Shown here: piece by piece, positions 8,995 through 29,882 of the stretch
How the letters are laid out: every line of letters begins with the position of its first letter
Numbering within the stretch: the first letter of the stretch is position 1
Notes under the pieces: model-generated
Told to the model about the DNA's origin: nothing
The model's database searches: none
What the model saw: only the letters and a program-made list of their open reading frames with translations
Translations under genes and position numbers: made by a program
Source of the DNA: a virus
Strand: one strand, 5' to 3'
Virus record (IMG/VR): IMGVR_UViG_3300033141_001098
Coordinates: 1-32,006 of that record
DNA length: 32,006 nucleotides

Positions 8995-9475
8995 CTTTCG
9001 TGGGTATTTTGCCTACGAGTTACACCAGCAGATGAAGAAGAACCCCGACATTCGGGTTATCACGGCGGATTTGGGCTGGGGTATGTTCGACGCTATCAAG
9101 AAAGACTACCCCGACCGCTTCATTAGCGTAGGCGCGGCGGAACAGGCAATGCTCGGCATTAGCGTTGGAATGGCCCTAAAAGGCTTGATACCCTTTTGTT
9201 ATAGCATTACCCCATTTCTGCTTTATCGGCCGTTAGAATGGATAAAGAACTACCTACACCACGAGAACATCGCTGTTAAACTAGTCGGAGCCGGCGTTGG
9301 CAAGGATTACGGTGATGACGGCTTCACCCATTGGTCAGACGAACCATTTAACACCATTATCAATCGCTATCCCAACATTCAGCAATTTTGTCCGGAAAAG
9401 AAAGAGGCTGTGCCGGCAATGGTCAAGGAAATGATAACCAACAAGAAACCGTCATTTATACATTTACACCGATGA
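8978..9475 (+). CDS. Transketolase-like pyrimidine-binding subunit, no C-terminal domain
   Basis: 165 aa, overlapping the N subunit by 17 bp. The PYR-domain hallmark VGAAEQAMLGISVGMAL carries Glu55, which activates the thiamine ring. The protein ends after this domain: the third, transketolase-C domain (about 110-130 aa) is missing. It should form the active site at the interface with the preceding subunit. With an SDR and glycosyltransferases around it, a role in making an unusual sugar is likelier than central carbon flux; this is inference. Confidence 0.85.
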   Translation: MKRHNSFRGYFAYELHQQMKKNPDIRVITADLGWGMFDAIKKDYPDRFISVGAAEQAMLGISVGMALKGLIPFCYSITPFLLYRPLEWIKNYLHHENIAVKLVGAGVGKDYGDDGFTHWSDEPFNTIINRYPNIQQFCPEKKEAVPAMVKEMITNKKPSFIHLHR

Positions 9476-9711
9476 AAAAACTAACAGAGATAGAACAATG
9501 CTATGTAGATACGACAGAGTATCTAAAAAGCATAGGGCTGAACACTTTTCTATACGGTTCCCCTCTTTTACAGATTATACGGTCTGGGGAACTTAAAAAC
9601 AGACATAGATTTGATAAAGAGCTAAACATTGGCTGTTTAGATGAAGATTTAACAGAGAAGATGATAAAAAGGATTAGAAAAGATTATGACAATCCTTTAC
9701 TTTGGCAATAA
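9472..9711 (+). CDS. LicD-like phosphotransferase, N-terminal half
   Basis: 79 aa, ATGA overlap with the previous gene. FLYGSPLL (26-33), then IRSGELKN, then FDKELNIG (47-54) line up with the LicD/FKRP nucleotidyltransferase start (FLxxGTLLG..R.G.....DDDIDIG). The acidic triad is degraded: only some of the expected Asp remain. LicD proteins move phosphocholine or similar groups from CDP-linked donors to glycans. The frame stops at 9711, and the remainder of the fold continues in another frame from 9686. This is either a frameshifted gene, a programmed shift, or two subunits. Confidence 0.6.
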   Translation: MKKLTEIEQCYVDTTEYLKSIGLNTFLYGSPLLQIIRSGELKNRHRFDKELNIGCLDEDLTEKMIKRIRKDYDNPLLWQ

Positions 9712-10003
9712 TGACTCCAAAAATCTTTGGGGAGACAAGGGACTCTTTACTCTATTAGCGCCATTCTTTCTTAAAGATAATCTAAGAGTTGAATATATGG
9801 GGGGCGGTATTTGTAAGACTTGGCCGAAGCGCCATTATGAAAATCTTGGCACCATTGACTACAAGGGTTATACCTTCAACATTCCCAATGACCCAGAGGG
9901 GTGGTTAGAGCATTACTTTGGCTCGGATTGGCGAGAGGAGAACCTAAATTGGCATTGGCAAACTGACGCTAAGAATGTTGAAAAATTAAGTAATGTCTTA
10001 TGA
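9686..10003 (+). CDS. LicD-like phosphotransferase, C-terminal half
   Basis: 105 aa in the next frame, overlapping the N half by 26 bp. The block NIPNDPEGWLEHYFGSDWR (65-83) followed by W.W matches the LicD C-terminal signature (P.....YLe..YGdW). Its ATG could be used by reinitiation, with AAAGGA about 12 nt upstream. The cytidylyltransferase gene starts within its stop (4-bp overlap), and such an enzyme would make a CDP-activated donor. Splitting of the pair is the odd point; the domain identification is moderately sure. Confidence 0.6.
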   Translation: MTILYFGNNDSKNLWGDKGLFTLLAPFFLKDNLRVEYMGGGICKTWPKRHYENLGTIDYKGYTFNIPNDPEGWLEHYFGSDWREENLNWHWQTDAKNVEKLSNVL

Positions 10004-10413
10004 ATAATAAAATTGTTGGATATACAAGTGGTGTTTTTGACCTGTTTCACGTTGGTCATCTAAGGCTCTTGGAGGCTTGTAGGGAGAGGTGCGAAAGCTT
10101 GACGGTGGCCGTTTCTACCGACAAGCTGGTTAAAAGCTATAAAGGCAAAAAGCCAATTATCCCTTTTCACGAGAGGGTGGAGATTGTTGAGAGCCTGTGG
10201 TGTGTTGATAGTGTCATTGCCCAAAACAGTCTTGATAAGTTTAGGGCGTGGGAAAAGCTAAAATATGATATCCTATTTGTTGGCGATGACTGGTTTGGGA
10301 CTGAGAGCTGGAAGGATTACGAGAAGAAGCTAAAGAAACGAGGAGTAGTTGTTGTTTATTTCCCTTACACCAAAGGCATCTCTACCACTAAAATTAGAAA
10401 GAAACTAAGATGA
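10000..10413 (+). CDS. tagD: Glycerol-3-phosphate cytidylyltransferase-like (TagD family)
   Basis: 137 aa, close to TagD (about 130). The HxGH nucleotide-binding motif lies in GVFDLFHVGHL (H17, H20) and the second signature ISTTKIR is at 127-133. LFVGDDWFG and the ERVEIV block also fit. The family reaction is CTP + sn-glycerol-3-phosphate to CDP-glycerol + PPi; ethanolamine-phosphate or other cytidylyltransferases are related alternatives. The adjacent LicD-like genes suggest that the CDP-alcohol is used to decorate a glycan. Overlaps of 4 bp on both sides show one operon. Confidence 0.85.
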   Translation: MNNKIVGYTSGVFDLFHVGHLRLLEACRERCESLTVAVSTDKLVKSYKGKKPIIPFHERVEIVESLWCVDSVIAQNSLDKFRAWEKLKYDILFVGDDWFGTESWKDYEKKLKKRGVVVVYFPYTKGISTTKIRKKLR

Positions 10414-11087
10414 ACGAATCTAAAATAAAACTTAATGGAATTTTTTACCCTTCAGTTGGCGTGAACGGTAATAAAATACCCTTTGACTCTTTATTTATCC
10501 CCTACATCTTCAAGGAAATTTATTTGGAGGGTGTTTATGTTGACATCTTTAACCAAAAGAAAGATATGACTATCCTTGACGTGGGTGCAAATGTGGGAAT
10601 TGTTACCCACTATATGCGCCAGTTTGCTAAAAAGGTATATGCCGTTGAACCATCTCCGGAGCACTTTGAGGCGCTCAAAAAGAACAAGGAGTTTAACAAG
10701 TGGGACAATGTGGAGATTTTTAACCTTGCTCTTGCTGATACCAACGGCAAGATGAACCTTAACATTAATCCTGGCAACCGAACCTGTAATAGTCTTGTTT
10801 TGGACTACAACAAAAACTCCGTCGAGGTTGAAACAATGCGTTTCGATACCTTTATGGAAAAGAATAAGATTAAAGAGGTTGACTTCTGTAAGTTTGATGT
10901 TGAAGGGGCAGAAGATATGATTTTAAGAAGCGAGGGGTTTAAGAAAGTGGCTCACAAGATTAAGGCGATTGAGGTCGAATTTCATTTCCCAAACTGGCAG
11001 GAACTTGTGAAATATATGCTTGAATTAGGCTATACCGCCAGAAGATACGAAAGTAGCGCTATAATAATTTTATTTACTCGGGGCTGA
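10410..11087 (+). CDS. FkbM-family methyltransferase 1
   Basis: 225 aa, SAM-dependent. Motif I ILDVGANVG (55-63), the acidic end of strand 2 in YAVEPS (77-82), and the FkbM signature KFDVEGAE (161-168) are all present. Members methylate hydroxyl groups on sugars or polyketides, so O-methylation of a glycan made by this operon is likely. It shares a 4-bp overlap with tagD and one base with the second FkbM gene. The two FkbM copies differ strongly, so this is not a recent duplication. Confidence 0.88.
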   Translation: MNESKIKLNGIFYPSVGVNGNKIPFDSLFIPYIFKEIYLEGVYVDIFNQKKDMTILDVGANVGIVTHYMRQFAKKVYAVEPSPEHFEALKKNKEFNKWDNVEIFNLALADTNGKMNLNINPGNRTCNSLVLDYNKNSVEVETMRFDTFMEKNKIKEVDFCKFDVEGAEDMILRSEGFKKVAHKIKAIEVEFHFPNWQELVKYMLELGYTARRYESSAIIILFTRG

Positions 11088-11728
11088 TGAAAGATTTATT
11101 TACATTTCCTAATATAAATAAGGGCAGACCACTCGCCATTTCTTATAAAAGAAAGAGGTTCATTGGCGAGGTCATCGTCGGCAACGAATATGGTTTTGTC
11201 TTCGACGACTTGGTAGTGGTTGATATCGGGGCGGGAATTGGCGCTTTCTCTCTTTGGATTTACGACCGAGCCAAACAAATTTACGCTATTGAGCCGGCCA
11301 AAGATGTTCTCGACTGTCTTAACGAGACGGTCAAGGATAACGACCTGACAAAGATAAAAACCTATATGCTGGCAATATCTGACGAGACTTTTCTTGGAAG
11401 AATGAGAGAAGAAGGCGACCCCCATTTAGGGGCATGGCAGATTGACCCACAAGGTAAATACCCGACCGAGATAATGTCTTTAGGCAAGTTTTTTGAGAGA
11501 GAGGGGATTGAACACGCTGATATTGTTAAGATAGACGCCGAGGGAATGGAAGAAAGGATTTTATTAGCCGATGACTTCCCGAAAGATAAGATTAGCACCA
11601 TTATCGGCGAAGACCACGACTTTAGAAAAGAGAAAGACAGACGGTCGTTGAAACCCGCCCTAGACAAAATAGGCTTCGAGTATTTTGAGTGTCCACATCA
11701 TCACTTTATGGGGAGGAAAAGAATATGA
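11087..11728 (+). CDS. FkbM-family methyltransferase 2
   Basis: 213 aa. Motif I VVDIGAGIG (44-52), YAIEP (66-70) and the FkbM signature KIDAEGME (148-155) define the fold. A His/Asp-rich segment (EDHDF, then PHHHF near the C-terminus) may take part in the active site. It probably methylates a different sugar position from its neighbour. The glycosyltransferase that follows starts within its stop codon (ATGA). Confidence 0.88.
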   Translation: MKDLFTFPNINKGRPLAISYKRKRFIGEVIVGNEYGFVFDDLVVVDIGAGIGAFSLWIYDRAKQIYAIEPAKDVLDCLNETVKDNDLTKIKTYMLAISDETFLGRMREEGDPHLGAWQIDPQGKYPTEIMSLGKFFEREGIEHADIVKIDAEGMEERILLADDFPKDKISTIIGEDHDFRKEKDRRSLKPALDKIGFEYFECPHHHFMGRKRI

Positions 11729-12471
11729 AAAAAGAGAAAGTTTGCGCATTTACCTTTGTCTCGGACGACTATTATCAGCCTATTGGCACGCCGAAGATGA
11801 TTAATTCTTTCAAGCGTTTTCACCCTGACATCGACTTGATTGTTTTCCGGCAAGACGTAGTTGACGTAATGTTTAGGAAGTTTGGCTTTCTTAACTGGCT
11901 CAATGCTAAACCCACCTTTGCTAAGCTCTTAGCTGACCAATACGACTTGGTGGTTAATATCGACGCTGATAGTGTTATCTTGGGGCGGTTGGAGTCAGTT
12001 TTAGCTCAAGACTACGAAGTAGGAGCGGCTTGGAACTACAATGACTACGAGAATAGGAAGGTTAAGAATGTTACCGAGAAGATGTTTGTCAATGCTGGCT
12101 TGGTCGCTTCAAGAAAGAAGGAGTTTTGGGATATTTGGGAGAGAGAGAACCAAGAGGCCTACAAGTATGTCTGCGCCGAGAACGATATTCTTAACTTGAT
12201 TTGGTATAACAACACTGCCTTTAACAAAAAGATATTCGATAAGAAAAAAGACTATTACGGGTGTAAGTCGTTAGGGAGAGAAAGAGAGTTTGAGGTTAAA
12301 GATAACAAGGTAATGCTTCGTGGCGAGCAAGTGTTACTTTACCACCACGCTAAAGGGCCAGGAGCAATGCCCAAGCTCCAGTTTGAGAAAATGGGATTTA
12401 ATGATGATGTGGTTAATTATATGAATTTTGTTAGCTCTTATGGAAAGAGCGCTATTTATGGAAATATATGA
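11725..12471 (+). CDS. GT-A type glycosyltransferase
   Basis: 248 aa from ATG 11725 (ATGA overlap with the upstream gene). A hydrophobic strand leads to NIDADSV (78-84), a DxD motif that binds metal and nucleotide-sugar, followed by FVNAGLVASRK, typical of GT8-like enzymes, and a late LYHHAKGPG with the His expected to ligate the metal. It has no membrane segment and acts in the cytosol. Donor and acceptor are unknown. Confidence 0.82.
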   Translation: MKKEKVCAFTFVSDDYYQPIGTPKMINSFKRFHPDIDLIVFRQDVVDVMFRKFGFLNWLNAKPTFAKLLADQYDLVVNIDADSVILGRLESVLAQDYEVGAAWNYNDYENRKVKNVTEKMFVNAGLVASRKKEFWDIWERENQEAYKYVCAENDILNLIWYNNTAFNKKIFDKKKDYYGCKSLGREREFEVKDNKVMLRGEQVLLYHHAKGPGAMPKLQFEKMGFNDDVVNYMNFVSSYGKSAIYGNI

Positions 12472-13259
12472 GCAAGCTTTATAGCGTCTGGACACCACAA
12501 TTCGTTCCCTGGAGTGGTGGCATTCGAGTGCTACACGCTTTTATTGATGCCTTGAGAAAGAAAGGCCAACACGTGCTCGTTAACGCCATTGTCGAAAATC
12601 AAGACGCCATTGCTGTCTATCCCGAACTTGCCCACGGTAACCCACTACAAGCTAATGAGGTAGTGCGGTGGATACTAAGCTGGCCGGGGTTTGTCGGCGG
12701 TGGACCAACTAAGTTTGATAAGACCGACAAGATATTCGTTTTCTCCAAGATTTATAACACCATGGGCGTTGATGACGACCATATTATGTTTCTTCCCGCG
12801 ATTGACATTAACATCTTTCACCAGACTAACTTTGGCAAGAGAACCAAGAAGTGTAAGTATGTCAGCAAGGGGGTTGACCTTCACTTGCCGGAGCTTGAGG
12901 GGGTAGAGGAGCTTCATAAGGAGATGGCGGTTGACCAGCAAGCCCTAGCTGACTACCTTAACGAGTGTGAGGTGCTATATTCCTACGATCCGGCTTCGGC
13001 TATCTTCGAGTGTGCCCGCCTGTGCGGCTGTCGCGTGGTGATTATCCCGCCGAAGAAATACGCTCACTCTAAATATGGTAATATGACCAAGAAAGAGTTT
13101 AGCCAATATGAACCCGGAATGAACGGGATTAGTTGGGGGCTAAAGGAACACAATGAGTTAGACGCTGAGAAGTTTATGAACCACTACATCGATATGATTA
13201 TGGAGTTTGACCGTAAGCTAAATAAGTTTATTGAGATAACGCAAGGGGGTGGGAAATAA
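12468..13259 (+). CDS. GT-B-like glycosyltransferase of a phage/cell-surface type
   Basis: 263 aa. SGGIRVLH (16-23) is the Gly-rich N-terminal loop of GT-B enzymes. YPELAHGNPL and RWILSWPGFVGG (about 51-78), then YSYDPASAIFECARLCGC, are blocks shared by a family often seen beside methyltransferases and LicD genes. Overlaps of 4 bp and 1 bp tie it to its neighbours. It is somewhat short for a complete two-domain GT-B, so the donor domain may be reduced. Confidence 0.72.
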   Translation: MSKLYSVWTPQFVPWSGGIRVLHAFIDALRKKGQHVLVNAIVENQDAIAVYPELAHGNPLQANEVVRWILSWPGFVGGGPTKFDKTDKIFVFSKIYNTMGVDDDHIMFLPAIDINIFHQTNFGKRTKKCKYVSKGVDLHLPELEGVEELHKEMAVDQQALADYLNECEVLYSYDPASAIFECARLCGCRVVIIPPKKYAHSKYGNMTKKEFSQYEPGMNGISWGLKEHNELDAEKFMNHYIDMIMEFDRKLNKFIEITQGGGK

Positions 13260-13411
13260 TGCCTAAAGCAATGGAGAAAAAACTAAAAGCGGAAGCAAGA
13301 AAGAAGTTTCATTCAACCACCAGCGCCAGAGCGAGAAAGTATATTTACGGAGCAATGAGAAAGGTTGGTTGGAAGCCGAAGAAGAGAAAAAAAAGGAGAA
13401 CCAAGAAATGA
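13259..13411 (+). CDS. Small, very basic protein inside the sugar operon
   Basis: 50 aa, about 40 percent Lys/Arg and ending in KKRKKRRTKK. The core RKYIYGAMRKVGWKP resembles small basic phage proteins with a Y.YG..RK.GW pattern, whose function is unknown to me. It starts on the last base of the glycosyltransferase stop and ends inside the next start, so it is genuinely part of the operon. DNA or RNA binding, or packaging with the genome, is plausible from charge alone. Confidence 0.65.
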   Translation: MPKAMEKKLKAEARKKFHSTTSARARKYIYGAMRKVGWKPKKRKKRRTKK

Positions 13412-14523
13412 AGACGATTCGCCTCTTTGCGTTGCCGAGTCACGCCTCTAAGTCGAGAGTCTCTGGCGTTGACTTTTGTAGGATTATCCAACCAATGGAA
13501 CACCTTGACGGCTGGACAGATGGTGAAGTTAAGTTCAAGGTTGATGTCTGGAACATTTACGATAAGAATAAGGCTGACTGGCGCAAGATTGCCAAAGAGT
13601 ATGACATTATTTACCTTAATTATCTTAATCAAGCGTGGGGATTTGCGGCAATGGGTTGTATGGTGAGAAAGTATGGGCGGAAGATGGTAATGGACTTTGA
13701 CGACAACCTCTGGGGTATCTTGCCCGACAACACCGCTTATCAGGTTTATAAGAAAGGAAGTGAGGGGATAAAAGTGATTACCAGTATCGCTAAAGAGGTT
13801 GATTACATTACCTGCACCAATTCCTATTTAAAGAACGCCATTGCCTACAACACGAATAAGAAACACGAACTAATCAGGGTTATGCCCAACTATATCGACC
13901 TCGACCTCTATAAATATCACCCTCGCTTTAAAGATGACCAACAAATTCAACTAGTTCACTTTGGCAGTAGTAGCCACTTTACTAGCCTTCAATCAGAGCA
14001 GTTTAATAAGGGGATAGATAAAATCCTCAAGGAATATCCCAATGTCGTGTTCAAGACAGTCGGTGCCTTTATTCCGAAGTATAAACTGCGTTGGGGAGCT
14101 AGATATTTACACTCTTTTGGGGATACTGATGTGTATAAGTGGATAAAGGGAAGATTTCCGGATGTAATGAAAGAAACAGATATTCTTGTAGCGCCATTAA
14201 CCGAAAATGTCTATAATCGCTGTAAAAGCTCTATTAAATTCTTAGAAGCAAGTAGTGCTAAAAGACCTGGAGTTTGGCAAGATATCCGTCAGTATCAAGA
14301 AGTGGTTAATAACGGCGAGAACGGCTTTCTAGCGCGTGTGTCGCGAGATTGGTATGAAGCGATTAAGAAGCTCATTGACGACAAGGCGTTGAGAAAAGAA
14401 ATGGGCAAACAAGCCTTCAAGACGGTTGAGGATAAGTGGCAGATGAAAGACAATCTTGACCGCTACGGTAATTTCTTCAAAGAGGTTTTTCTTGACAAGA
14501 ATAATAAGATTCACTATAATTAA
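13408..14523 (+). CDS. GT4-like glycosyltransferase
   Basis: 371 aa from ATG 13408 (AAGGAG about 9 nt upstream; an in-frame TTG at 13369 is rejected). Signs of a two-domain GT-B fold are VMDFDDNLW (about 94-102), HFGSSSHF starting the second domain, and KSSIKFLEASSAKRPG (about 274-289), where the donor-binding Glu expected of GT4 enzymes sits. It is the last sugar gene. Its final codons (LDKNNKIHYN) also encode a perfect TTGACA-17-TATAAT promoter for the next block. Confidence 0.85.
   Translation: MKTIRLFALPSHASKSRVSGVDFCRIIQPMEHLDGWTDGEVKFKVDVWNIYDKNKADWRKIAKEYDIIYLNYLNQAWGFAAMGCMVRKYGRKMVMDFDDNLWGILPDNTAYQVYKKGSEGIKVITSIAKEVDYITCTNSYLKNAIAYNTNKKHELIRVMPNYIDLDLYKYHPRFKDDQQIQLVHFGSSSHFTSLQSEQFNKGIDKILKEYPNVVFKTVGAFIPKYKLRWGARYLHSFGDTDVYKWIKGRFPDVMKETDILVAPLTENVYNRCKSSIKFLEASSAKRPGVWQDIRQYQEVVNNGENGFLARVSRDWYEAIKKLIDDKALRKEMGKQAFKTVEDKWQMKDNLDRYGNFFKEVFLDKNNKIHYN
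14492..14520 (+). promoter_or_regulatory. Perfect consensus sigma70 promoter
   Basis: TTGACA (14492-14497), 17-nt spacer, TATAAT (14515-14520), all inside the last codons of the glycosyltransferase gene. The expected start is near 14527. The transcript runs at once into a hairpin and a terminator before reaching ATG 14608. Confidence 0.88.
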
Positions 14524-14526
14524 TAT

Positions 14527-14596
14527 TAAGTAAGCTTTTCGGCTACCATTAGAGTAGCGCGTTGGCTCTCACGACTTTGTTGTGGGAGCTTTTTTT
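14527..14596 (+). ncRNA. About 70-nt leader RNA 1: hairpin plus terminator
   Basis: Hairpin 1 is GCTAC (14542-14546) with GTAGC (14554-14558), 7-nt loop. The second is the terminator listed separately. The plan (consensus promoter, 7-nt-loop hairpin, terminator with T7, then a structural gene) is the same as at 19.45 and 22.27 kb, although sequence identity to those is low. The product may be a short RNA or a conditional leader of the 14608 gene. Confidence 0.7.
14565..14596 (+). terminator. Intrinsic terminator, 8-bp stem plus T7
   Basis: GCTCTCAC (14565-14572) pairs with GTGGGAGC (14582-14589) with one G-U, followed by TTTTTTT (14590-14596). It could end the sugar operon, but it also lies only ~40 nt downstream of the start of its own promoter, so it would attenuate the virion genes. 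Confidence 0.82.
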
Positions 14597-14607
14597 ATTT
14601 ATACAAT

Positions 14608-15906
14608 ATGGGAATATTCAATACACTAGGATATCAACCGTGGCGGATTACTAATCAAGGCTATTCCGGACCAGGACCAAGTGGATATCAAGAGTATGCT
14701 CCAATAACAGCACCAGGGTATCAAGACACCCGAATGACTAGTCAAGGCTATTCCGGACCAGGACCAAGCGGATATCAAGAGTATGCTCCGGTAACAACGG
14801 GGGATGTTCTCGGTGCTTCAACTGGTGGCGATGGAGCCGGTGGCGATACCTTCTTCGATACAGCGGCAAATTATGGCAGGGTCAACGGTCGAGAGACTCG
14901 CGACTACAACGAATACCTGCGAATGACCGGACAACAAGGGGCGGTCGGAAGTGAACCGGCTGGTCCATCAGCAGAAGAACTTGCTCGACAAGCAGAAGAA
15001 GAAAGACGCCGAGCGGCGGAAGAAGAAAGACGCCGATACGAGGCCGAGGTAAGAAGTAACATTGAATCTGGTTATTCTGGTTACTTTGACAAGTTGAACG
15101 CCATGCTTAACGAGGGTTTGCCAGCACAACGAACAGCTCAAGAGGGCATTGCTAGAAGTCAGTATGAACAAGGAGTGGCAGGTCTTGGTTCACAGAGAGA
15201 AGAAGGACTGGGAATGCTTGGTAAACAACGAGAGAGAACGACAGAGAGTCAAGCAAAAAATCTTCGTGATATTGCTGCCAACCTTAGAAATGCCTTTATG
15301 GCTGGAAACATTTACCTCGGTTCACAAGGGGCGGGAGATAGTTCAGCCGCCAACCAATATTCTTATGCTTTGACAAAAATGGGCACTCGCCAAAGAGGAG
15401 ATATAATGAGACAGACGGCTGATATTCAAAGAGAGATTGACGATAGGGAAGCAAAGCTCCAGAATATTTATACTGATGAAGTTAATCGTCTTGCCGCTGA
15501 AAGAGACCAGAAGATAATGGGAGTGGCTCAATGGTTTGCCGAAGCACAAAATCAAATAAGAGAAGCTCAAGGGCGAGGGGAATTAGAAAAGGGCCAAGAC
15601 CTAGCCAGTCTTTCTCAAAACTTGCTCAATGAGGCTATTAATAATTTGAATGCTATTAAACAAGAAGAAGCCAACCGCAGAGGAATGCTCGAAGAATGGG
15701 CGCTTAACAACGCTAAGGGTATCCAGCAGGTAAGAGCCAATATGGGAACAGTTCAAGGATATACTCCGCAGTTGCCTCAAGCCCCAAGAGCAATCGCTGG
15801 TCAACCCCAAATGAGCGCTAGGGGAAACATAACTGTTCCAGGATATGGTTATAACCAAGATGAAGAACGCAAAACCTTATTTAACAATCCATCGTGGTTG
15901 GCATAA
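14608..15906 (+). CDS. Probable internal virion / ejection protein
   Basis: 432 aa. The N-terminus has two tandem 29-residue repeats (residues 8-65) built around GYSGPGPSGYQEYAP. Next is a Glu/Arg/Ala coiled coil (about 125-150, with EERRR twice) and a long helical, Gln-rich region to about 375; the tail is Pro-rich. There are no enzymatic motifs and no signal peptide. This make-up, and its place before a 1171-aa protein and the tail genes, match podovirus inner-core or ejection proteins. There is no SD: the leader is AU-rich after the terminator T-run. Confidence 0.62.
   Translation: MGIFNTLGYQPWRITNQGYSGPGPSGYQEYAPITAPGYQDTRMTSQGYSGPGPSGYQEYAPVTTGDVLGASTGGDGAGGDTFFDTAANYGRVNGRETRDYNEYLRMTGQQGAVGSEPAGPSAEELARQAEEERRRAAEEERRRYEAEVRSNIESGYSGYFDKLNAMLNEGLPAQRTAQEGIARSQYEQGVAGLGSQREEGLGMLGKQRERTTESQAKNLRDIAANLRNAFMAGNIYLGSQGAGDSSAANQYSYALTKMGTRQRGDIMRQTADIQREIDDREAKLQNIYTDEVNRLAAERDQKIMGVAQWFAEAQNQIREAQGRGELEKGQDLASLSQNLLNEAINNLNAIKQEEANRRGMLEEWALNNAKGIQQVRANMGTVQGYTPQLPQAPRAIAGQPQMSARGNITVPGYGYNQDEERKTLFNNPSWLA
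14629..14802 (+). repeat. Two tandem 87-bp coding repeats
   Basis: Units 14629-14715 and 14716-14802 encode 29 aa each. The core GYSGPGPSGYQEYAP is identical in both and nearly identical at DNA level, so the duplication is recent or kept homogeneous. The Gly/Pro/Tyr-rich character suggests an extended, flexible segment. Confidence 0.85.
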
Positions 15907-15921
15907 TAAAGGAGGCTCACA

Positions 15922-18900
15922 ATGAGTTTACTCGACCTCGGTGAAAAAATCAGAAAAATTCTCAATGTCTCGACACAGAATCTCAGGGCGTGGGGGCAAG
16001 TGGCTACACAACCAAAGTTAAGACAAGAATATAGCCAGAGGGTGGCTAAGCCCGCTATTCAATCCAAAATAAATCGTGCCGCAGTATCTTTGGCTGGGCC
16101 TAATTTCTCTAACTGGAGTCAGGACTTGGAAGAAGATTATAGAAAAAGAGGAGTATTCCAAGGTCTGCAAAGCACATTTAATCCCCTTCTAATGAATAAG
16201 CATGTTTATCCTATTGCAGAGCCGATTGTTAGCAAGCTTAGGGTTGGGCGATATAAGCTTAGCAAGCAATGGGAGAAAGAACAACCATATATGAAGGCAC
16301 AATTAAGAGCCGGAGTATCGCTTCCGCCAGAAACCCCTGCCTCTTACTTCTTGACCAAAACACCGATAGGGCAAAAAGTTAGAGCCGCTATCGAGAAGCC
16401 ACGAATACCCTACGGCAAACCAGGGACATTTTTAACGACTAAGAAACCACAGATTGGATGGAAACAACCAGGCAAACTACTTACTTCTTTTTTAACCGAA
16501 CGGCCAGAGACGACTCAAGTTAGGGCAAAGTTACAGAGAGGAGAAGATTTAACAGGGGAAGAGAAACGAATAGCCCAAATAGCATCACAACAACAGATGA
16601 TGGGCTTTACAGGTGGGGTTAAAACAGTCCGCGGCGTTAATCCTCAAATGGCAAGAAAAATTTTGAATGTCAAGAAAGGAGCAACAGCAAAGGAGATAAA
16701 CAAAGCCTTCCGGATATTAGCTAAAAAGGAATGGCCAAGAACAATACAGGAGGTAGCCAGCAAAAACAAGACGACAGCGGCGAGGATTGTTGGCGAGGCA
16801 AAAGATATACTATTGAACGAAGCAAAGAAAATCAAGATAGTTCCTAGGTTGGGAGGAGCAGTTGAAGGAGTTAGCCGAAAAGCAGAATTGCCAATAAAAA
16901 TAAAGGGAGAACTGCCTAAAATCAAAGTTCCTGAAAGTCCGAGAATTAAGATTATTCAAGGAGGAGACCCCGTTCAAAAGGTAATCAACGCACTAAAAGG
17001 AGCACCACGGGTAAGAACCAAACAAGAAGCCTTATACGCCCTTGAGAGAGCTAAGCGGACAGCAAAAGTGGCAGGAGTAGGTAAAATGGTTGGGGGGGAG
17101 AAGGGTTACTTCGCTCAACTTGGTCAACTAAAGGGCAAACTACCAAAAGTAGAGTTTGAAAGTATTAGGAAACAAATTAGCCAAGATGATATTGATAGCT
17201 TGTTTAACAAAGTAGAACAGAGCACTACCCTCTTGCCATTAGAAAAGGTAAGCACTAAAACGGGGTTGTCTAAACTGTTGGGAGCAGAAGGCGGGTCGGT
17301 TCCTACCAAAGGAGAATTAAAACTATTAAACGAAGTTTTTCCTCCTGAGTTTGTCCAAGCAGTCCTTGATAAAAGGTCGCTAACTAAAAAGCTATTCCAA
17401 GCAGGGGTAGAAGCATTAAACGTTCCACGGGCAATAATGGCTACTGCCGATATGTCCGCCCCGCTAAGACAAGGAGTATTTCTAATTGGCCGACCCAAAA
17501 CTTGGGGGCCAGCATTTAAGTCAATGGTAAAGAGCTTCTTTAATGAAAAATCCTATCAGGGTATGATGGACGATATAAAAAGTAGGCCAACCTATAAGGC
17601 AATGCGGCGAAACAAACTTTCCTTAACAGAACTTGATGGTATGTTAACCTCACGAGAAGAAACCTTTATGTCACAACTGCCAGAGAGAATCCCCCTATTT
17701 GGTAAAGTAGCTAGAGCCTCAAACCGAGCCTATGTGGGCTTTTTGAATAAACTAAGGGCTGACACTTTTGATGATTTATATAGAACCGCCCAAAGCCAGA
17801 ACCTTGTCAAAGGAAATCCTAAGTTGACTCACGATATTGCCAACTTTGTCAACGCCGCTACTGGTAGAGGTGGTCTTGGGAAACTTGAAGGAGCGGCAGT
17901 AGCATTAAATAGCACCTTCTTTTCGCCAAGATTAATGGCTTCTCGTCTTAACCTTCTTAATCCTGCCTACTATGCTAAACTTGAACCTTTTGTGAGAAAA
18001 CAGGCCCTAAAATCCCTATTTACCTTTTTAGGGACAGGCCTAACGGTGCTTACTTTAGCTAAGATGGGCGGAGCAAAAGTTGGTTCAGACCCGAGAAGCG
18101 CTGATTTTGGCAAGATAAAGATAGGCAACACCCGCCTTGATATTTGGGGTGGCTTTCAACAGTATGTCAGATTAGCAGGTCAACTTATTAGTGGGAAGCT
18201 CATCAGTTCTACAACAGGAAAAGAATATACTTTGGGAGAAGGATATAAGCCAATTACAAGACTGGGGATTATGGGTCGGGCGTTGGAATACAAAGAAGCC
18301 CCTGTCATCTCTTTTGCAACAGCCCTCTTAAAGAACCAAGATGTCTTTGGACAAAAGCCAAACTGGGGGGCAGAGGTAATTAATCGATTTACGCCAATGG
18401 TTGTTCAAGATATGTATGACCTATACAAAGAAAGAGGGTTGGTGGGCATTGGTATGGCTACGCCAGCGATATTTGGAATAGGTGTCCAAACTTATGGCGA
18501 GCAAGTGCCAATTAAAGACGTAACGGCAACTGGCAAACCAAAGGTTAGTTTTATCAACAAGCCAGGGTTGGGAGAGGATGTTTGGGCTAAGATAACGGGA
18601 GATAAAAGGGAAGAAATAATTAGCGACCCGACTCTCTATCCTGAATATCTTAGGAAAAAACAAGCAAAAGTAGCCTTAGATAAGGCTAAACAGGAAGCAC
18701 GAAAGAAGGGGATTAAAATAAGTGCGACAGAACCAGCCCTAACAATAGGATTACCAAAGGAAGAAGAAGCAAGCAAAGAGCTTTATAAAGATGCTGTTTC
18801 TAAGGTTAAATCGTTAGAGAGTAGGTTGCTTACTATGCCCTACGAGCCAAGAGAAAAGATTAATGAGATTTCAAGAGAATATGATATTCGAGAAAAACAA

Positions 18901-19437
18901 AACGAACTTGAAAGATACAAAAGACTATTGAATAAGTTTGAAACAGAAAGACCAGAACAGGTCTTTGAATACAAGATAGATACTTACCGCTCTGGTGGTG
19001 GTCAAAAGGTAGACACTCGCGCTAAGTGGGTAGCCGACACCCTAAGGGGACTAGAGGGCAAAGAGAGACAGGAAATGATTAACCGCCTCTGGGACGAGAA
19101 AGTTATCACTAAAGGGGCAAGCGGTGTAGCTCAATATCTGAAAGATAACTTTAACCTTGATGTATGGAACTATACCTCTAGCACGGGTAGCACAGGCAAA
19201 GGGAGAAAAACAACAAAGGCCAAGGCTGTTAAGAAAGTATCTTATCGAAAAATATCCATTCCAAAGGTAAAGATGACCAAGATAAGACACCGGAAGATGC
19301 CGGTTCTCAAGATAGCCAAACCGCCGACAATGAAAACAACCGCCCGAAAAGCAAGAAAGATACCAATGCCTGCTTATAAAGCACCGACAATCAAAATCTC
19401 TAAACCGAAAGGTTTGACCGTGGGACGCTACAGGTGA
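15922..19437 (+). CDS. Large internal virion protein with a degenerate J-domain-like segment
   Basis: 1171 aa; AAAGGAGG before the ATG. At about residues 245-300 a J-domain-like helix pattern is seen (ARKILNVKKGATAKEINKAF), but the HPD motif is replaced by EWP, so Hsp70 stimulation is unlikely. The segment about 480-830 (with LNSTFFSPRLMAS near 662-674, a hydrophobic stretch 696-716, then RLDIWGGFQQYVRLAGQLI) matches a region common in very large phage virion polypeptides that enter the host with the DNA. The last ~80 residues are strongly basic. It likely forms part of the ejected core or DNA channel. Its end abuts a promoter: the -10 begins right after the TGA. Confidence 0.7.
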   Translation: MSLLDLGEKIRKILNVSTQNLRAWGQVATQPKLRQEYSQRVAKPAIQSKINRAAVSLAGPNFSNWSQDLEEDYRKRGVFQGLQSTFNPLLMNKHVYPIAEPIVSKLRVGRYKLSKQWEKEQPYMKAQLRAGVSLPPETPASYFLTKTPIGQKVRAAIEKPRIPYGKPGTFLTTKKPQIGWKQPGKLLTSFLTERPETTQVRAKLQRGEDLTGEEKRIAQIASQQQMMGFTGGVKTVRGVNPQMARKILNVKKGATAKEINKAFRILAKKEWPRTIQEVASKNKTTAARIVGEAKDILLNEAKKIKIVPRLGGAVEGVSRKAELPIKIKGELPKIKVPESPRIKIIQGGDPVQKVINALKGAPRVRTKQEALYALERAKRTAKVAGVGKMVGGEKGYFAQLGQLKGKLPKVEFESIRKQISQDDIDSLFNKVEQSTTLLPLEKVSTKTGLSKLLGAEGGSVPTKGELKLLNEVFPPEFVQAVLDKRSLTKKLFQAGVEALNVPRAIMATADMSAPLRQGVFLIGRPKTWGPAFKSMVKSFFNEKSYQGMMDDIKSRPTYKAMRRNKLSLTELDGMLTSREETFMSQLPERIPLFGKVARASNRAYVGFLNKLRADTFDDLYRTAQSQNLVKGNPKLTHDIANFVNAATGRGGLGKLEGAAVALNSTFFSPRLMASRLNLLNPAYYAKLEPFVRKQALKSLFTFLGTGLTVLTLAKMGGAKVGSDPRSADFGKIKIGNTRLDIWGGFQQYVRLAGQLISGKLISSTTGKEYTLGEGYKPITRLGIMGRALEYKEAPVISFATALLKNQDVFGQKPNWGAEVINRFTPMVVQDMYDLYKERGLVGIGMATPAIFGIGVQTYGEQVPIKDVTATGKPKVSFINKPGLGEDVWAKITGDKREEIISDPTLYPEYLRKKQAKVALDKAKQEARKKGIKISATEPALTIGLPKEEEASKELYKDAVSKVKSLESRLLTMPYEPREKINEISREYDIREKQNELERYKRLLNKFETERPEQVFEYKIDTYRSGGGQKVDTRAKWVADTLRGLEGKERQEMINRLWDEKVITKGASGVAQYLKDNFNLDVWNYTSSTGSTGKGRKTTKAKAVKKVSYRKISIPKVKMTKIRHRKMPVLKIAKPPTMKTTARKARKIPMPAYKAPTIKISKPKGLTVGRYR

Positions 19438-19443
19438 TATAAT
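19414..19443 (+). promoter_or_regulatory. Near-consensus sigma70 promoter with extended -10
   Basis: TTGACC (19414-19419), 18-nt spacer, TATAAT (19438-19443) preceded by TGA, giving a TGnTATAAT extended -10. The -35 lies in codons of the 1171-aa gene and the TGA stop is part of the extended -10. The start is expected near 19450. Confidence 0.88.
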
Positions 19444-19449
19444 CTAATT

Positions 19450-19520
19450 ATAGTTATCTTTACCTACAAGAGCGGTAGGTTAGACGAGTAACCTGTTAAT
19501 TGGGTGGCTCGTCTTTTTTT
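19450..19520 (+). ncRNA. About 70-nt leader RNA 2 (copy A of a repeated element)
   Basis: Hairpin 1: ACCTAC (19462-19467) with GTAGGT (19475-19480), loop AAGAGCG. Hairpin 2: AGACGAG (19482-19488) with CTCGTCT (19508-19514), a 2x2 internal loop, then ACCT (19491-19494) with GGGT (19502-19505) and a 7-nt loop. T7 at 19514-19520 touches ATG 19521. Copy B at 22266-22336 keeps every stem through compensatory changes, showing a functional RNA. Confidence 0.85.
19482..19520 (+). terminator. Intrinsic terminator abutting a start codon
   Basis: A 7-bp stem (19482-19488 with 19508-19514) and T7 (19514-19520) directly before ATG 19521. Read-through is required for the adaptor gene to be expressed from its own promoter, so this is probably an attenuator. 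Confidence 0.85.
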
Positions 19521-20207
19521 ATGGCAACAATTATCAAAACATTATCAGACGCTATTTCTTACATCAACAGTCTTTACGAACAAGACAGCACTGCGCCCTC
19601 AAGTGGTGATGAAAGTTACACCCTGTGGACGGCTTTAATCAATATCGCTGTTGGTCTTTGGGAGAATGAAGAAGGTGTTTTATGGCGAGAACTTTACACT
19701 ACCCTTGCTGATGCCTCTGACGGCGACAAGACAATTACCGCTTCTACCTGGGACTACGATTGCCCCTCTGACTTTAACTTTGTTGTTGGCAAGGTAAGGC
19801 TTGTTTCACCGAGTGGCGTTTCTTCCTACTATGAGGTTATCCCCTCTAGCGATGTTAGCCTTTATGACGACAATAGCGACCGCTGGTGTTACTTTACCGG
19901 CAATGCTTCTGACGGATATAAAATCCACTTCAACCCCGATTTAACGCTGACAACGGGATATACAATCGCCTACGAGTATTATAAAACCGCTACTAAGATG
20001 ACGACTGGCGCAGACACCTTTGAAATGGCTGACCCGATGTTCGCTGTTTTTTACACACTAGGTGAATTAAAGAAAGACGAGGGGGACACAACCGCAATGG
20101 GGATTGCGACACAGAAGCTGGAAGCAATGAGGGTAAAAAATATGATGCCGTCTTTTTATCAAGATACCTCTCTTCGCGACCGAACCGGAGATGGTTTTGG
20201 CTTTTAA
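19521..20207 (+). CDS. Head-tail adaptor / tail-tube A-like protein
   Basis: 228 aa from ATG 19521; an in-frame TTG at 19500 lies inside the terminator hairpin and is rejected. A helical N-terminus (SDAISYINSLYEQD, then LWTALINIAVGLWEN), a beta-rich centre, and a helical C-terminal part (MFAVFYTLGELKKDEGDTT, then EAMR) resemble podovirus adaptors that sit beneath the portal. Its place before the tail-hub gene supports this. There is no SD; translation must start right after the U-run of the terminator. No motif proves the family. Confidence 0.6.
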   Translation: MATIIKTLSDAISYINSLYEQDSTAPSSGDESYTLWTALINIAVGLWENEEGVLWRELYTTLADASDGDKTITASTWDYDCPSDFNFVVGKVRLVSPSGVSSYYEVIPSSDVSLYDDNSDRWCYFTGNASDGYKIHFNPDLTLTTGYTIAYEYYKTATKMTTGADTFEMADPMFAVFYTLGELKKDEGDTTAMGIATQKLEAMRVKNMMPSFYQDTSLRDRTGDGFGF

Positions 20208-22231: not shown

Positions 22232-22260
22232 TTGACAATAAGTTATTGCCGATATATACT
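22232..22260 (+). promoter_or_regulatory. Consensus sigma70 promoter, TTGACA-17-TATACT
   Basis: TTGACA (22232-22237), 17-nt spacer, TATACT (22255-22260). Unlike the other promoters, it lies just past the stop of the upstream gene. It feeds leader copy B. Confidence 0.88.
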
Positions 22261-22265
22261 AAAAA

Positions 22266-22336
22266 TAGTTATCTTTACCCGCAAGAGTGGCGGGTTGGAT
22301 GAGCAGCTCGCTAGTTGAGTGGCTCATCCTTTTTTT
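22266..22336 (+). ncRNA. About 70-nt leader RNA 3 (copy B of the repeated element)
   Basis: It starts with TAGTTATCTTTACC like copy A (19451-19464). Hairpin 1: ACCCGC (22277-22282) with GCGGGT (22290-22295), loop AAGAGTG. Hairpin 2: GGATGAG (22297-22303) with CTCATCC (22323-22329), a 2x2 internal loop, GCTC (22306-22309) with GAGT (22317-22320), 7-nt loop. T7 is at 22330-22336, then ATG 22337. Pair changes relative to A: U-A to C-G and A-U to G-C in stem 1; A-U to G-C and C-G to U-A in the terminator stem; C-G to U-A in the upper stem. Confidence 0.87.
22297..22336 (+). terminator. Intrinsic terminator abutting a leader-peptide ATG
   Basis: A 7-bp perfect stem (22297-22303 with 22323-22329) and T7 (22330-22336). 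It is the homologue of the 19482 terminator. It separates the tail-hub gene from the fibre gene and lies within the fibre's own leader. Confidence 0.87.
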
Positions 22337-22387
22337 ATGGCAAAAAATAGTTTCAAAAATATTTTAAACAAAAGGATGGTGAATTAA
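22337..22387 (+). CDS. 16-aa putative leader peptide before the fibre gene
   Basis: ATG directly after the terminator U-run, then 16 codons (MAKNSFKNILNKRMVN) and TAA. The position is the same as that of the adaptor start in copy A (ATGGCAA in both), so the element seems to have been placed before a short ORF here. The stop lies one base before TTG 22389, and the end of the ORF holds AAGGATGGTGA, the SD of the fibre gene, so translation coupling is likely. Expression is unproven. Confidence 0.5.
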   Translation: MAKNSFKNILNKRMVN

Positions 22388-22388
22388 A

Positions 22389-23282
22389 TTGGCGGCTGCA
22401 AACACAGACAAATTCAAAAAATTGGCTCGCAAGTGGACTGGGGCGATTGGCTCCGGTGGTGTGGCCAATGACTCAACAACAACCATTCCTCTTGCTTCTT
22501 CTACCAACCTCCCGACCGATACGGCTGTGGTCGCCGTGATTGACCGCGTTGATGCTAATGGAACAAAAACTCCTTCACTAGAAGAAAGCGTTATCGGGGT
22601 TGTTTCCGGCAGCAATTTAGTTACTTGCACGAGAGGGGTGGAGGGAACGGCACAAGCTCACTCAGCCGGAGCAGTGGTAGAGATTTTATTTACCAACAAG
22701 GGCTGGGAAGATTTAATTGACGGAATACTGGCGGAGCATAATCAAGCAGGCGCTCATACCACCGACACTATTTCCGAGAAAACAGCCGCGGCAGGAGTAA
22801 CCATTGATGGCCTACAGATAAAAGATGGTGTTGGAGTATATACTGACAAAGCACCAAAGATTAATGTTAAAGCAAGAGCCTATTTATCTGCCGCTCAAGA
22901 AGATTTGGTGAGTGATGTATTTACCAAAATTCTTCTTGATGCAGAGGATTATGATACGGGGAGTGATTTTGATGTGGGGAATCATGAATTTGTAGTTCCA
23001 ATAGACGGATATTATTTGATTACCTTTGGGGTGCGTTTTGATAATGTGGTTGTCAATAAAAATTATCAAGTTTCGATATTTATAGGAGAAACTGGAAAGT
23101 TTTACGCAAGGAATCAGGCCGCAATCGCCGATGATGTATTGGTATCAGGTTCAGATATTATGAATTTGTCGGCAGGAGAAAAAGTTAGTCTTAGGGCTTA
23201 CCATAACGCTGGGGTTAATACAGTGGATATATATGGATCACCCTATTATACAATGATGGCAATTCACCTATTAAGCATCTAA
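22389..23282 (+). CDS. Tail fibre with C1q-like tip domain
   Basis: 297 aa from TTG 22389, with AAGGATGGTGA as SD. The N-terminal part (about 1-130) is like phage minor fibres: VTCTRGVEGTAQAHSAGAVV, then a helical AEHNQAGAHTTDTI segment leading to a short stalk. From about 157 to 297 it resembles a C1q/TNF jelly roll: VKARAYLSA, DVGNHEFVVPIDGYYLITFG (the Y-rich strand pair), LSAGEKVSLRAYH and the final MMAIHLLSI. Such trimeric heads bind glycans or proteins. It may be an alternative receptor-binding protein beside the 828-aa fibre. Confidence 0.75.
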   Translation: MAAANTDKFKKLARKWTGAIGSGGVANDSTTTIPLASSTNLPTDTAVVAVIDRVDANGTKTPSLEESVIGVVSGSNLVTCTRGVEGTAQAHSAGAVVEILFTNKGWEDLIDGILAEHNQAGAHTTDTISEKTAAAGVTIDGLQIKDGVGVYTDKAPKINVKARAYLSAAQEDLVSDVFTKILLDAEDYDTGSDFDVGNHEFVVPIDGYYLITFGVRFDNVVVNKNYQVSIFIGETGKFYARNQAAIADDVLVSGSDIMNLSAGEKVSLRAYHNAGVNTVDIYGSPYYTMMAIHLLSI

Positions 23283-23413: not shown

Positions 23414-24322
23414 ATGAAAATCACAGATATTAGGAAGCAGTTAGCTTACAGAAATATTGCACCACATAGGAAGATTAGTGATATCAAATTCATAATTTTA
23501 CACCACGACGCCGTAGAAGTAACCCCAAATTACGACCCTCTTGTTCGTTACAAGTCAGAGGCAAAGTTTCACTACAATAAAGATTGGAACGGTGATGGGA
23601 AAGCAGATGGGTCGGGAATTATGTACCACTACAAAATTGATTATGACGGTAATCTTTACTTCTGCCGTAATTTAGGTGAAGCCTTGTGGCATTGTGGAAA
23701 TTACCAAAAAAACCTCGAAAGTATTGCGATATGTCTAGATGGCCACTTGACCAATCAAAAGCCTTCTAAGGCCCAACTGGTGACGCTAGCGGAGTTTTTA
23801 AGAGGTCTTTCAACGCAACACCCTGAATTTCCTGCTAGTTTCAAAGACATCTTCGGTCATCGAGAGATATCGGCCACTAATTGTCCTGGCGATAACCTCA
23901 TTAAGTTTGTTCAAGACTTTAGGGAAAAGAAAGGGCAAATAAATGTTGATGACTATCCTCACACTCCCAGCGCAGTCGAAACTCCCCCAGAAGAACCCCA
24001 AACGCCTGAAATTGAAAAGCCTTGCCAAGAAATTGAAAATTATTCTGAAAAAAACAACACTATTTTAGAAGAAATTGCCCCGATGATAGGGGAAATTCAC
24101 GACTTCATACCAAAATGGCAGAAAGAGTTAGAGAGTGCCAATAAAAAAGTAGCAAAATTAGAGAAAGAGATTGTCAAAATCGACGAAGAAAGGAAGAATT
24201 TTCAACGATTATATAAAGAGAAACTCGAAGGAACGATTGACAAGGCGACGGTGGGACAACTTCTGTCTGCCCTCATCGGTCGCTTTAGCAAAACTCAACG
24301 GGCGAAAACCCCTGAGCAGTAA
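23414..24322 (+). CDS. Endolysin: N-acetylmuramoyl-L-alanine amidase (Amidase_2/PGRP)
   Basis: 302 aa. It cuts the bond between MurNAc and L-Ala. The zinc ligands are expected at His30 or His31 (ILHHDAV), His149 (FGHREI) and Cys157 (TNCPGD). An insert with NGDGKADG (59-66) looks like a calcium-binding DxDG loop. After a Pro/Glu linker (about 180-205) comes a helical coiled coil (about 208-285) instead of a known wall-binding domain. It has no signal peptide, so it needs a holin. The stop codon lies in the first copy of a tandem 40-bp hairpin repeat. Confidence 0.9.
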   Translation: MKITDIRKQLAYRNIAPHRKISDIKFIILHHDAVEVTPNYDPLVRYKSEAKFHYNKDWNGDGKADGSGIMYHYKIDYDGNLYFCRNLGEALWHCGNYQKNLESIAICLDGHLTNQKPSKAQLVTLAEFLRGLSTQHPEFPASFKDIFGHREISATNCPGDNLIKFVQDFREKKGQINVDDYPHTPSAVETPPEEPQTPEIEKPCQEIENYSEKNNTILEEIAPMIGEIHDFIPKWQKELESANKKVAKLEKEIVKIDEERKNFQRLYKEKLEGTIDKATVGQLLSALIGRFSKTQRAKTPEQ

Positions 24323-24389
24323 TAGGGCAAGAATTACTTCTCAACGGGCCCCTGAGCAGTAATAGGGCAAGAATTACTTCTCAACGGGC
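24309..24389 (+). repeat. Tandem 40-bp repeat, each unit a hairpin
   Basis: Copies 24309-24349 and 24349-24389 are identical at 40-bp period. Each holds TGAG-c-AGTAAT, a 9-nt loop, ATTACT-t-CTCA, a 10-bp stem with one mismatch. A further partial copy of the end (CTCAACGGGC) lies at 24294-24303. The first unit spans the amidase stop. No T-run follows. It may be a recent duplication, a protein-binding site or a processing element. Confidence 0.85.
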
Positions 24390-24398
24390 GTCTCGCTC

Positions 24399-24427
24399 TT
24401 GAGATTTTATGTGAAAGTGATTATAAT
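24399..24427 (+). promoter_or_regulatory. Sigma70 promoter giving a leaderless holin mRNA
   Basis: TTGAGA (24399-24404), 17-nt spacer, TATAAT (24422-24427). Only 7 bases separate the -10 from ATG 24435, so transcription would begin at or next to the A of the start codon. There is no SD for this gene, which agrees with leaderless initiation. Confidence 0.75.
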
Positions 24428-24434
24428 TAAATAT

Positions 24435-24659
24435 ATGACAAACAAAAAGATTTGGGAATTATTGTGGAAAGGAGCGAAAGAACCACTGCGGTTGTTAGTC
24501 TTATCTGCTCTGCCGATACTGATTGCTTATCTAAGAGATTTGCCTTACCAATGGGCGGCGGTAGCGATACTCATCTTACGACTAGCTGACAAAATTCTTC
24601 ACGAGATTGGCAAAGAAACTAAGGATGATAATTTATTAAGGGGACTTACACGCTTTTGA
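24435..24659 (+). CDS. Holin-like two-helix membrane protein
   Basis: 74 aa from ATG 24435; an in-frame ATG at 24399 overlaps the -35 box and is rejected. Two hydrophobic stretches (about 20-35, LVLSALPILIAYL, and 40-56, WAAVAILILRLADKI) and a charged C-terminus fit a class II holin or holin-accessory protein that makes membrane holes for the amidase. It lies next to the amidase and before an XhlA-like gene. No sequence family could be fixed. Confidence 0.65.
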   Translation: MTNKKIWELLWKGAKEPLRLLVLSALPILIAYLRDLPYQWAAVAILILRLADKILHEIGKETKDDNLLRGLTRF

Positions 24660-29305: not shown

Positions 29306-29694
29306 CTTTAAATTTAGACAAAATTGTTAAAGACTTAGAGAAAAGGGGTTTTACTGAAACTGGTTCTCAGACAACGAGTGGCACTTGGGACTTTGAGAAA
29401 GAGCCTGTTTTAGAGGGCATTTTCATTGAAAAGCAAGAAAATGTTGGCCATAATAATTCCAATATTTATGTTTTCGAGGTAAAAGACCACAAGCGTTACG
29501 GTGTTTGGGGCAGTAGTGTTCTCGACACTCGGTTGAAGAATTTGGTTGCCGGAGAGGAAGTGACTATCGTGTTTGTCGGTCGAGCCAAAAGCGAAAAGAC
29601 TGGTCGGACTTACAAAAACTACCGCGTGTTTCATAAGAGCAACGAGGATACATTTAACGACGACATCCCATTGCCAAAGGAGAGTGATAGATAA
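29302..29694 (+). CDS. OB-fold-like protein, possible ssDNA-binding partner
   Basis: 130 aa, beta-rich core (about 30-112): VLEGIFIEKQENVG, then YVFEVKDHKRYGVWGSSVLDTRL, then GEEVTIVFVGRAKS and TYKNYRVF. Alternating strands and a G.....G.....Y pattern resemble small phage OB-fold proteins. The acidic C-terminus (EDTFNDDIP) recalls ssDNA-binding proteins that use an acidic tail for partners. The adjacent nuclease supports a recombination role. This is inferred from pattern, not from a diagnostic motif. Confidence 0.55.
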   Translation: MTLNLDKIVKDLEKRGFTETGSQTTSGTWDFEKEPVLEGIFIEKQENVGHNNSNIYVFEVKDHKRYGVWGSSVLDTRLKNLVAGEEVTIVFVGRAKSEKTGRTYKNYRVFHKSNEDTFNDDIPLPKESDR

Positions 29695-29882
29695 TGACAA
29701 TAAGAAGAGAAGATATGTATAACCAGCGTAATAAGAAAATCTATGAAGCCTATCGAGCGGTTAATGAGTTTGGTGGGCCGAAATATATGAGGAAGGAGAT
29801 TGGCGAGATGTTCGGAATAACAGGCGTTCGAGTGGGACAAATTGTTAGGAAGATGGAGCAAACACTTGACAAGAGAAAGTAA
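29694..29882 (+). CDS. Small HTH DNA-binding protein (sigma region-4 like)
   Basis: 62 aa. The C-terminal half has MRKEIGEMFGITGVRVGQIVRKME, a helix-turn-helix with the sigma70 region 4 / MarR-like spacing (about 33-56). It could be a transcription regulator or a polymerase-binding protein, which matters here because the window has many sigma70 promoters and conditional terminators. It overlaps the upstream stop by 1 base. Its last codons (TLDKRK) carry the next promoter's -35. Confidence 0.7.
   Translation: MTIRREDMYNQRNKKIYEAYRAVNEFGGPKYMRKEIGEMFGITGVRVGQIVRKMEQTLDKRK

Follow-up and report, generated by a model that had tools for sequence, protein, structure and literature searches.

Recurring promoter–terminator cassettes with a conserved RNA hairpin as candidate transcription gates of virion-region genes in uncultivated phages

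A 32,006-nucleotide stretch of viral DNA (the window: IMG/VR record IMGVR_UViG_3300033141_001098, positions 1 to 32,006) contains three copies of a cassette in which a near-consensus σ70 promoter is followed by a U-rich box, a small hairpin (hairpin 1, or P1) and an intrinsic terminator at or near the start codon of a gene. Judged from sequence, the promoter match, hairpin 1, the terminator, covariation, position and recurrence at orthologous genes are established features of what is a widespread structured leader family of uncultivated phages, not represented in Rfam and under clear structure selection. These cassettes probably serve as gates that keep virion-region genes off until a signal lets RNA polymerase through. 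That the gates are off by default and opened by a factor in a RAT-like manner is a more specific reading, to which we give about an even chance.

All three cassettes lie on the + strand. Copy A (19414-19520) begins with the promoter TTGACC-18 nt-TATAAT (19414-19443), which agrees with the σ70 consensus at 11/12 positions; this score, matches out of 12, is used throughout. The 5′ box AUCUUU (19456-19461) is followed by hairpin 1 (ACCUAC-AAGAGCG-GUAGGU, 19462-19480), recognized by its fold and by covariation, and by the terminator (19482-19520), which consists of a stem-loop (19482-19514) and a U tract (19514-19520) with the ATG coming next, at 19521. The gene behind it codes for a 228-aa protein (19521-20207). 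Copy B (22232-22336) comprises the promoter TTGACA (22232-22237)-17 nt-TATACT (22255-22260), also with 11/12 matches, a box AUCUUU (22271-22276) that is complementary to the terminator foot and conserved in relatives, hairpin 1 (ACCCGC-AAGAGUG-GCGGGU, 22277-22295; fold and covariation), and a covarying terminator (22297-22336; ΔG −19.7 kcal/mol) with its stem-loop at 22297-22329 and U7 at 22330-22336. The gene behind copy B encodes a 297-aa protein with a C1q domain, a putative fibre (22389-23282). A 16-codon open frame, MAKNSFKNILNKRMVN, lies at 22337-22388, with its ATG right behind the U tract of copy B and ahead of the TTG with which the C1q gene begins; this insert is absent in the sister phage described below. 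Copy C (14492-14596) has the same layout: the promoter TTGACA-17 nt-TATAAT (14492-14520) matches the consensus at 12/12 positions, the box AGCUUUU (14533-14539) and hairpin 1 (GCUAC-CAUUAGA-GUAGC, 14542-14558) are kept in the sister, and the terminator (14564-14596) is a stem-loop with a U tract (U7, 14590-14596) ahead of a gene for a 432-aa protein (14608-15906) with no assigned function.

Hairpin 1 carries a 7-nt loop in copies A, B and C, and all three terminators have the form of intrinsic terminators, with a U7 tract and ΔG values between about −16 and −20 kcal/mol. In the three window cassettes and in three cassettes of the sister (A′, B′ and C′), 69-70 nt separate the −10 box from the U tract. 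The terminator ends at the start codon in A, A′ and B′ (within one base in B′), and elsewhere some tens of bases upstream. A U tract that runs straight into the ATG without a Shine–Dalgarno sequence is seen in the window (19514-19523), in locus L004 (9301-9310) and in L195, L198, L202, L207 and L208 (~9307-9340); many other genes of the window carry Shine–Dalgarno sites. The other strong promoters of the window (at 7537, 24399, 27810 and 29866) have no terminator downstream, and the replication genes (a DnaD-like loader and a Cas4-like exonuclease) lie among these ungated promoters. Among the strong promoters of the window, only those of the virion region have the candidate gate.

Some further features of the window may be recorded here. 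A perfect 40-bp tandem duplication (24309-24388) stands directly before the promoter-like site at 24399. In this promoter (24399-24437) the −10 box lies only 7 nt upstream of the ATG at 24435, which suggests that its transcript would be leaderless. A metabolic gene cluster (7596-14523) encodes an NAD-dependent epimerase, a cytidylyltransferase, an FkbM methyltransferase, the halves of a transketolase in two reading frames (8344-9475) and a glycosyltransferase (13369-14523).

The original prediction had described copies A and B as members of a dispersed RNA family under structure selection. With leader position 1 set at the A of AGTTATC (19452 in copy A, 22267 in copy B), the two leaders can be aligned over 69 nt with no gap and do have in common the predicted TAGTTATCTTTACC, the loop AAGAGYG and GTGGCTC. 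They differ at 16 positions, every one by a transition, and 13 of these differences fall within the helices formed by positions 11-16 with 24-29 (P1) and by 31-38 with 56-63 and 40-44 with 50-54 (terminator). No pair is broken, and five pairs are changed on both sides. The individual replacements had been read correctly: U-A to C-G and A-U to G-C in P1, A-U to G-C and C-G to U-A in the terminator stem, and C-G to U-A in the upper stem. When 13 random transitions were placed onto the A/B helices, an outcome with no broken pair had a chance of P = 0.009 and one with at least five two-sided pairs of P = 0.007. The A/B observation is confirmed, and the two-sided base changes in the stems show the RNA shape to be under selection.

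Other details of the prediction needed correction. The supposed 2x2 internal loop is a 1x1 A·G mismatch, because the outer position, pair 38-56, forms (U·G in A, C-G in B). Loops of 7 nt are present in hairpin 1 (AAGAGUG, AAGAGCG), but the terminator loop has 5 nt. Of the genes said to follow the elements, the C1q domain of the putative fibre is backed by a Pfam match (E 8.8e-6), but the 228-aa gene called an adaptor has no family match. The promoter at 22232-22260, copy C, the nearness to start codons and the spread of the family are additions to what had been described.

Lack of covariation in a larger alignment had been named as the outcome that would refute a dispersed RNA family under structure selection; larger alignments of distinct sequences (16, then 30) revealed strong covariation instead. 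Among 16 distinct A/B-type sequences, 95.5% of the pair cells are standard pairs, 14 of the 19 pairs show two-sided changes, and the covariation score is 0.453, compared to 0.190 for shuffled data (0/500) and at most 0.139 for slid partners. The second alignment comprised 30 distinct sequences; here two-sided changes were found in 17/19 pairs, with a score of 0.543 versus 0.176 for shuffled data and at most 0.105 for slid partners. Both alignments were fitted to a covariance model; an independent MAFFT alignment analysed with RNAalifold gave 12 predicted pairs, nine of them with two-sided changes. A second covariance model, built from the 16 sequences, reaches more divergent cassettes, including two of a relative designated G006, with modest E-values of 0.0008 and 0.03, and, weakly, copy C of the sister. 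All of its matches up to E 0.5 coincide with cassette sites or lie close to them, always on the + strand. The most conserved parts of the A/B type are the box UCUUU(A/G)C, which lies just before hairpin 1 and extends into its start, a loop near ANGAGUG and one G-C pair in the terminator foot; the upper terminator stem is absent in many relatives. A search of the window against Rfam returned no family match that reached the gathering score, only chance-level matches (E 1.5 and 2.4) outside the element.

The sister phage (G001, IMGVR_UViG_3300031227_000243) contains cassettes A′, B′ and C′ with the 69-nt spacing of the window, and a fourth, D′, upstream of its portal gene. In the window the portal gene (1-1417) lacks its first part, about 125 codons compared with the sister, as the record is incomplete there, so that a copy D would not be visible. 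DNA pattern scans of viral contigs returned the sister only, and a broad pattern mostly matched unrelated coding sequence. A first set of 42 relatives was collected by way of the 1171-aa protein (15922-19437). This protein has a sub-threshold DnaJ domain (residues 246-303), and its region 349-858 is common to many otherwise unrelated viral contigs. Most of the 42 relatives have one shared domain without other virion genes; most other virion-region genes are shared only by G001, G003, G006 and L024/L026, and clear cassettes were found in G001, G003, G006 and L024. A first covariance model, run on these relatives, matched A and B only. One strand of G006 carries five occurrences of the 9-mer TTGACTGTA, all of them at cassette heads, and the other strand carries none.

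The virion gene blocks are reordered among the window, G006 (L009), G003 (L006) and L024, with a cassette at the rearranged joints. The window has the order copy C, 432 aa-1171 aa; copy A, 228 aa-668 aa; copy B, fibre. The order in G006 is cassette f, 228 aa-645 aa; cassette g, 329 aa-1171 homologue; cassette a, fibre; in G003 and L024 the blocks stand in one row with a single cassette in front. The equivalence of the 228-aa and 329-aa genes of G006 to window genes rests on size, position and short motifs, because tblastn gave no direct match.

Fresh relatives were gathered by alignment of the 668-aa protein, a procedure that is blind to the RNA element. This gave 25 loci (L193-L216 and L232) with 53-73% identity, and thus 27 examined loci together with the window and the sister. 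In 26 of the 27, a leader-terminator (a stem-loop with U5-8) stands before the orthologous gene upstream of the 668-aa gene; in the exception, L216, the site is further upstream and less certain. In L199 and L210 the automatic choice of site was wrong, and the covariance model locates the cassette. For the 21 unique loci, the mean promoter score before the terminator is 9.5/12, compared to 6.3 in control windows, and 67% of the loci but 1% of the controls score at least 9/12 (MWU p 4e-9). The hairpin anchored directly upstream of the terminator exceeds in strength what shuffles give (Fisher p 1e-10; 21 unique loci). In many loci another cassette precedes the fibre gene, and some contain a third one upstream of that.

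To account for this arrangement we propose that each copy acts as a self-contained transcription gate at the front of a block of virion-region genes. Starting from a strong host-type promoter, a leader RNA of ~50-70 nt would fold into hairpin 1 and then into the intrinsic terminator. The U tract ends at the start codon or some nt upstream of it, so that transcription would by default stop ahead of the gene. As long as the 3′ arm of the terminator has yet to be transcribed, the box (G/A)UCUUU could pair with the foot AGAC of the 5′ arm; the resulting hairpin would have two tiers separated by an asymmetric internal loop, and it and the terminator would be mutually exclusive. The two-tier hairpin would be held by a factor that infection produces or activates and that is probably an RNA-binding protein; polymerase could then pass, and the virion-region genes would be switched on together. 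The default-off state, the opening factor and the timing are what we infer from this arrangement; a point against the gate model is that the terminators may simply be leaky.

The alternative fold in this proposal can be judged from the pairing between box and foot. Besides resembling the end of the terminator 3′ arm (GUCU-UUUU), the box (G/A)UCU complements the terminator foot (AGAC). By pairing of box and foot, hairpin 1 can be extended to a two-tier antiterminator that would exclude the terminator. Folds predicted before the 3′ arm emerges are mostly two-tier, consisting of the box-foot helix, an asymmetric internal loop (e.g. 2x1, 3x2, 4x3) and hairpin 1. In several cassettes box and foot differ together, as in L198 (GGCGUC/GACGCC), L213 (CUCU/GGAG) and G003 (GACU/AGUC and AGUC/GACU). 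Their complementarity is higher than that of shuffled boxes (p 0.002) and of boxes exchanged among the cassettes within a group (p 0.018), and a partition-function test gave p 0.004, or p 0.002 with a nonredundant set; a weaker result came from an earlier, cruder test for pairing of any kind of the leader with the terminator arm (p 0.03). With 2-6 bp the box-foot helix is short, and in copy A, where it contains an A·C mismatch, it is weak. As the box and arm segments were hand-chosen and single cassettes are rarely significant, box-foot pairing as an alternative fold is moderately supported rather than shown. Other pairings were considered and rejected. A trp-like attenuator helix (24-31/38-45) has 9-10 pairs in A and B (p 0.01 and 0.0015), but it is broken in copy A of the sister and impossible without the upper stem, which rules it out as the general mechanism. 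A pseudoknot between the box and the loop AAGAG was dropped, as the sister's loop AUGAGUG breaks the pairing.

For the trans-acting factor we searched the phage proteins with family models. No match was obtained for NusG (PF02357) or phage Q (PF06530, the Q model used) in five phage records, nor for CAT_RBD (PF03123) in 21. ANTAR (PF03861) gave no match in 21 phage records, where the control was also below the cut-off in every genome. Sigma region 4 gave no convincing match; a 62-aa HTH protein (29694-29882) that matches it weakly was set aside, as it is not conserved in relatives. The search for a single-subunit RNA polymerase is uninformative, because it and its control likewise found nothing. 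Small basic proteins like λ N would escape the models used, and the opening factor could be a host protein.

Processive antitermination by way of hairpin 1, of the λ nut, HK022 put or LoaP type, would not need the alternative fold: the box UCUUU(A/G)C and the hairpin would form a boxA/boxB-like site, a factor or the RNA itself would modify polymerase, and box-foot pairing would be incidental. At put of HK022 it is the RNA by itself that renders polymerase resistant to terminators further downstream. The conserved box UCUUU and the loop ANGAGUG beside a small hairpin are consistent with such a site, and the LoaP-controlled dfn leader also combines a small essential hairpin with an intrinsic terminator (PMC12691694). 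However, the likeness to boxA is confined to the core, the box is lost in G003/G006, box-foot complementarity is above chance, the five phage records contain no NusG-like protein, and the loop of hairpin 1 differs from the UNCG tetraloop present at the LoaP site. We regard this explanation as unlikely. It is quite unlikely, in our judgement, that the cassettes are passive boundaries, in which a leaky terminator closes the preceding unit and dampens the promoter next to it, while the repeats, like PeSLs in T4-type phages, also provide joints at which modules are shuffled by recombination. The differing block orders of the window, G006 and G003/L024, with cassettes at the rearranged joints, are what this idea would lead one to expect, and PeSLs are described, in work cited in PMC4503421, as composite promoter-terminator motifs that mediate modular shuffling. 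Yet it leaves the conserved hairpin 1 and box unexplained, and the promoter sits before, not after, the terminator. Stems and boxes also differ among the cassettes of one genome, which lowers the homology available for recombination.

Termination itself could be incidental if the element were a leader for mRNA stability or translation, in which the hairpins protect the mRNA and the U tract by the AUG replaces the Shine–Dalgarno sequence. Copy A is a case in point, as are the sister and several relatives: the U tract abuts the ATG, and no such sequence is present. On the other hand, a Shine–Dalgarno sequence follows the U tract in G006 f and g, L213 and L215, a strong stem with U5-8 is the form of a terminator, and many genes of this phage use Shine–Dalgarno sites, which makes this account very improbable. 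Hardly credible is the idea that the cassettes are genes for small RNAs (~60-75 nt) acting in trans. It would fit with their own promoter and terminator and with the conserved 5′ segment of the A/B type, but the cassettes lie almost always directly before the start of an orthologous gene, and their stems and boxes are variable, without a seed that the lineages have in common.

The cassettes might constitute a new class of phage antiterminator RNA: a regulon in which the host-type promoter of every virion-region block is under a RAT-like two-tier hairpin/terminator switch, and in which one common RNA-binding factor, encoded or induced by the phage, opens all of them together and has co-evolved with the hairpins in each lineage. 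We put this forward tentatively, as somewhat less likely than not. The structured RNA family has no Rfam match and recurs at orthologous genes in more than 25 uncultivated phage contigs. It suggests how phages that use strong host promoters could delay their virion genes, namely by per-block terminators that are opened together, and it predicts an antitermination factor that could be sought with the hairpin as bait. The compact leader parts are also on offer for tests in synthetic gene control.

In the late leader of lambdoid phages, pR′-tR′, a constitutive promoter is followed by a short leader, a terminator and the late genes, and Q provides antitermination. The cassettes resemble this arrangement in their constitutive promoter, short leader, terminator and late genes. 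They differ from it in that a lambdoid genome has one such site whereas the cassettes occur several times per genome and carry a conserved RNA hairpin, and in that Q (PF06530) had no match in five records. A literature search for promoter-terminator phage leaders found nothing apt. The LoaP-controlled dfn leader of Bacillus velezensis needs a small hairpin for read-through of an intrinsic terminator (PMC12691694) and is thus similar to the cassettes in its combination of leader hairpin and terminator, but it has a UNCG tetraloop, spans hundreds of nt and involves a NusG paralogue; the cassettes differ in loop and length, and five phage records gave no NusG match. PeSLs of T4-type phages (PMC4503421) and the inverted-repeat motif of HGTV-1 (PMC3950731), as citing papers describe them, likewise repeat a promoter with a terminator or an inverted repeat before genes and are tied to shuffling; compared on this basis, the cassettes differ by their place on virion-region genes and by the additional conserved hairpin and box. 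ANTAR leaders are defined by two small hairpins whose loops have A1 and G4 (PMC3369936), whereas in the cassettes a single small hairpin precedes the terminator, and in the A/B type its loop mostly has 7 nt. Closest to the proposed gate are the RAT leaders of BglG, SacY and LicT, in which the antiterminator hairpin shares the terminator foot (PMC9981650, PMC3369936): there, as predicted for the cassettes, an imperfect hairpin overlaps the foot with its 3′ strand and the two folds are exclusive. The 21 phage records contain no CAT_RBD protein and the element has no Rfam match. Unlike RAT leaders, which serve sugar operons, the cassettes are very short leaders beside start codons, present several times per phage genome and placed on virion-region genes.
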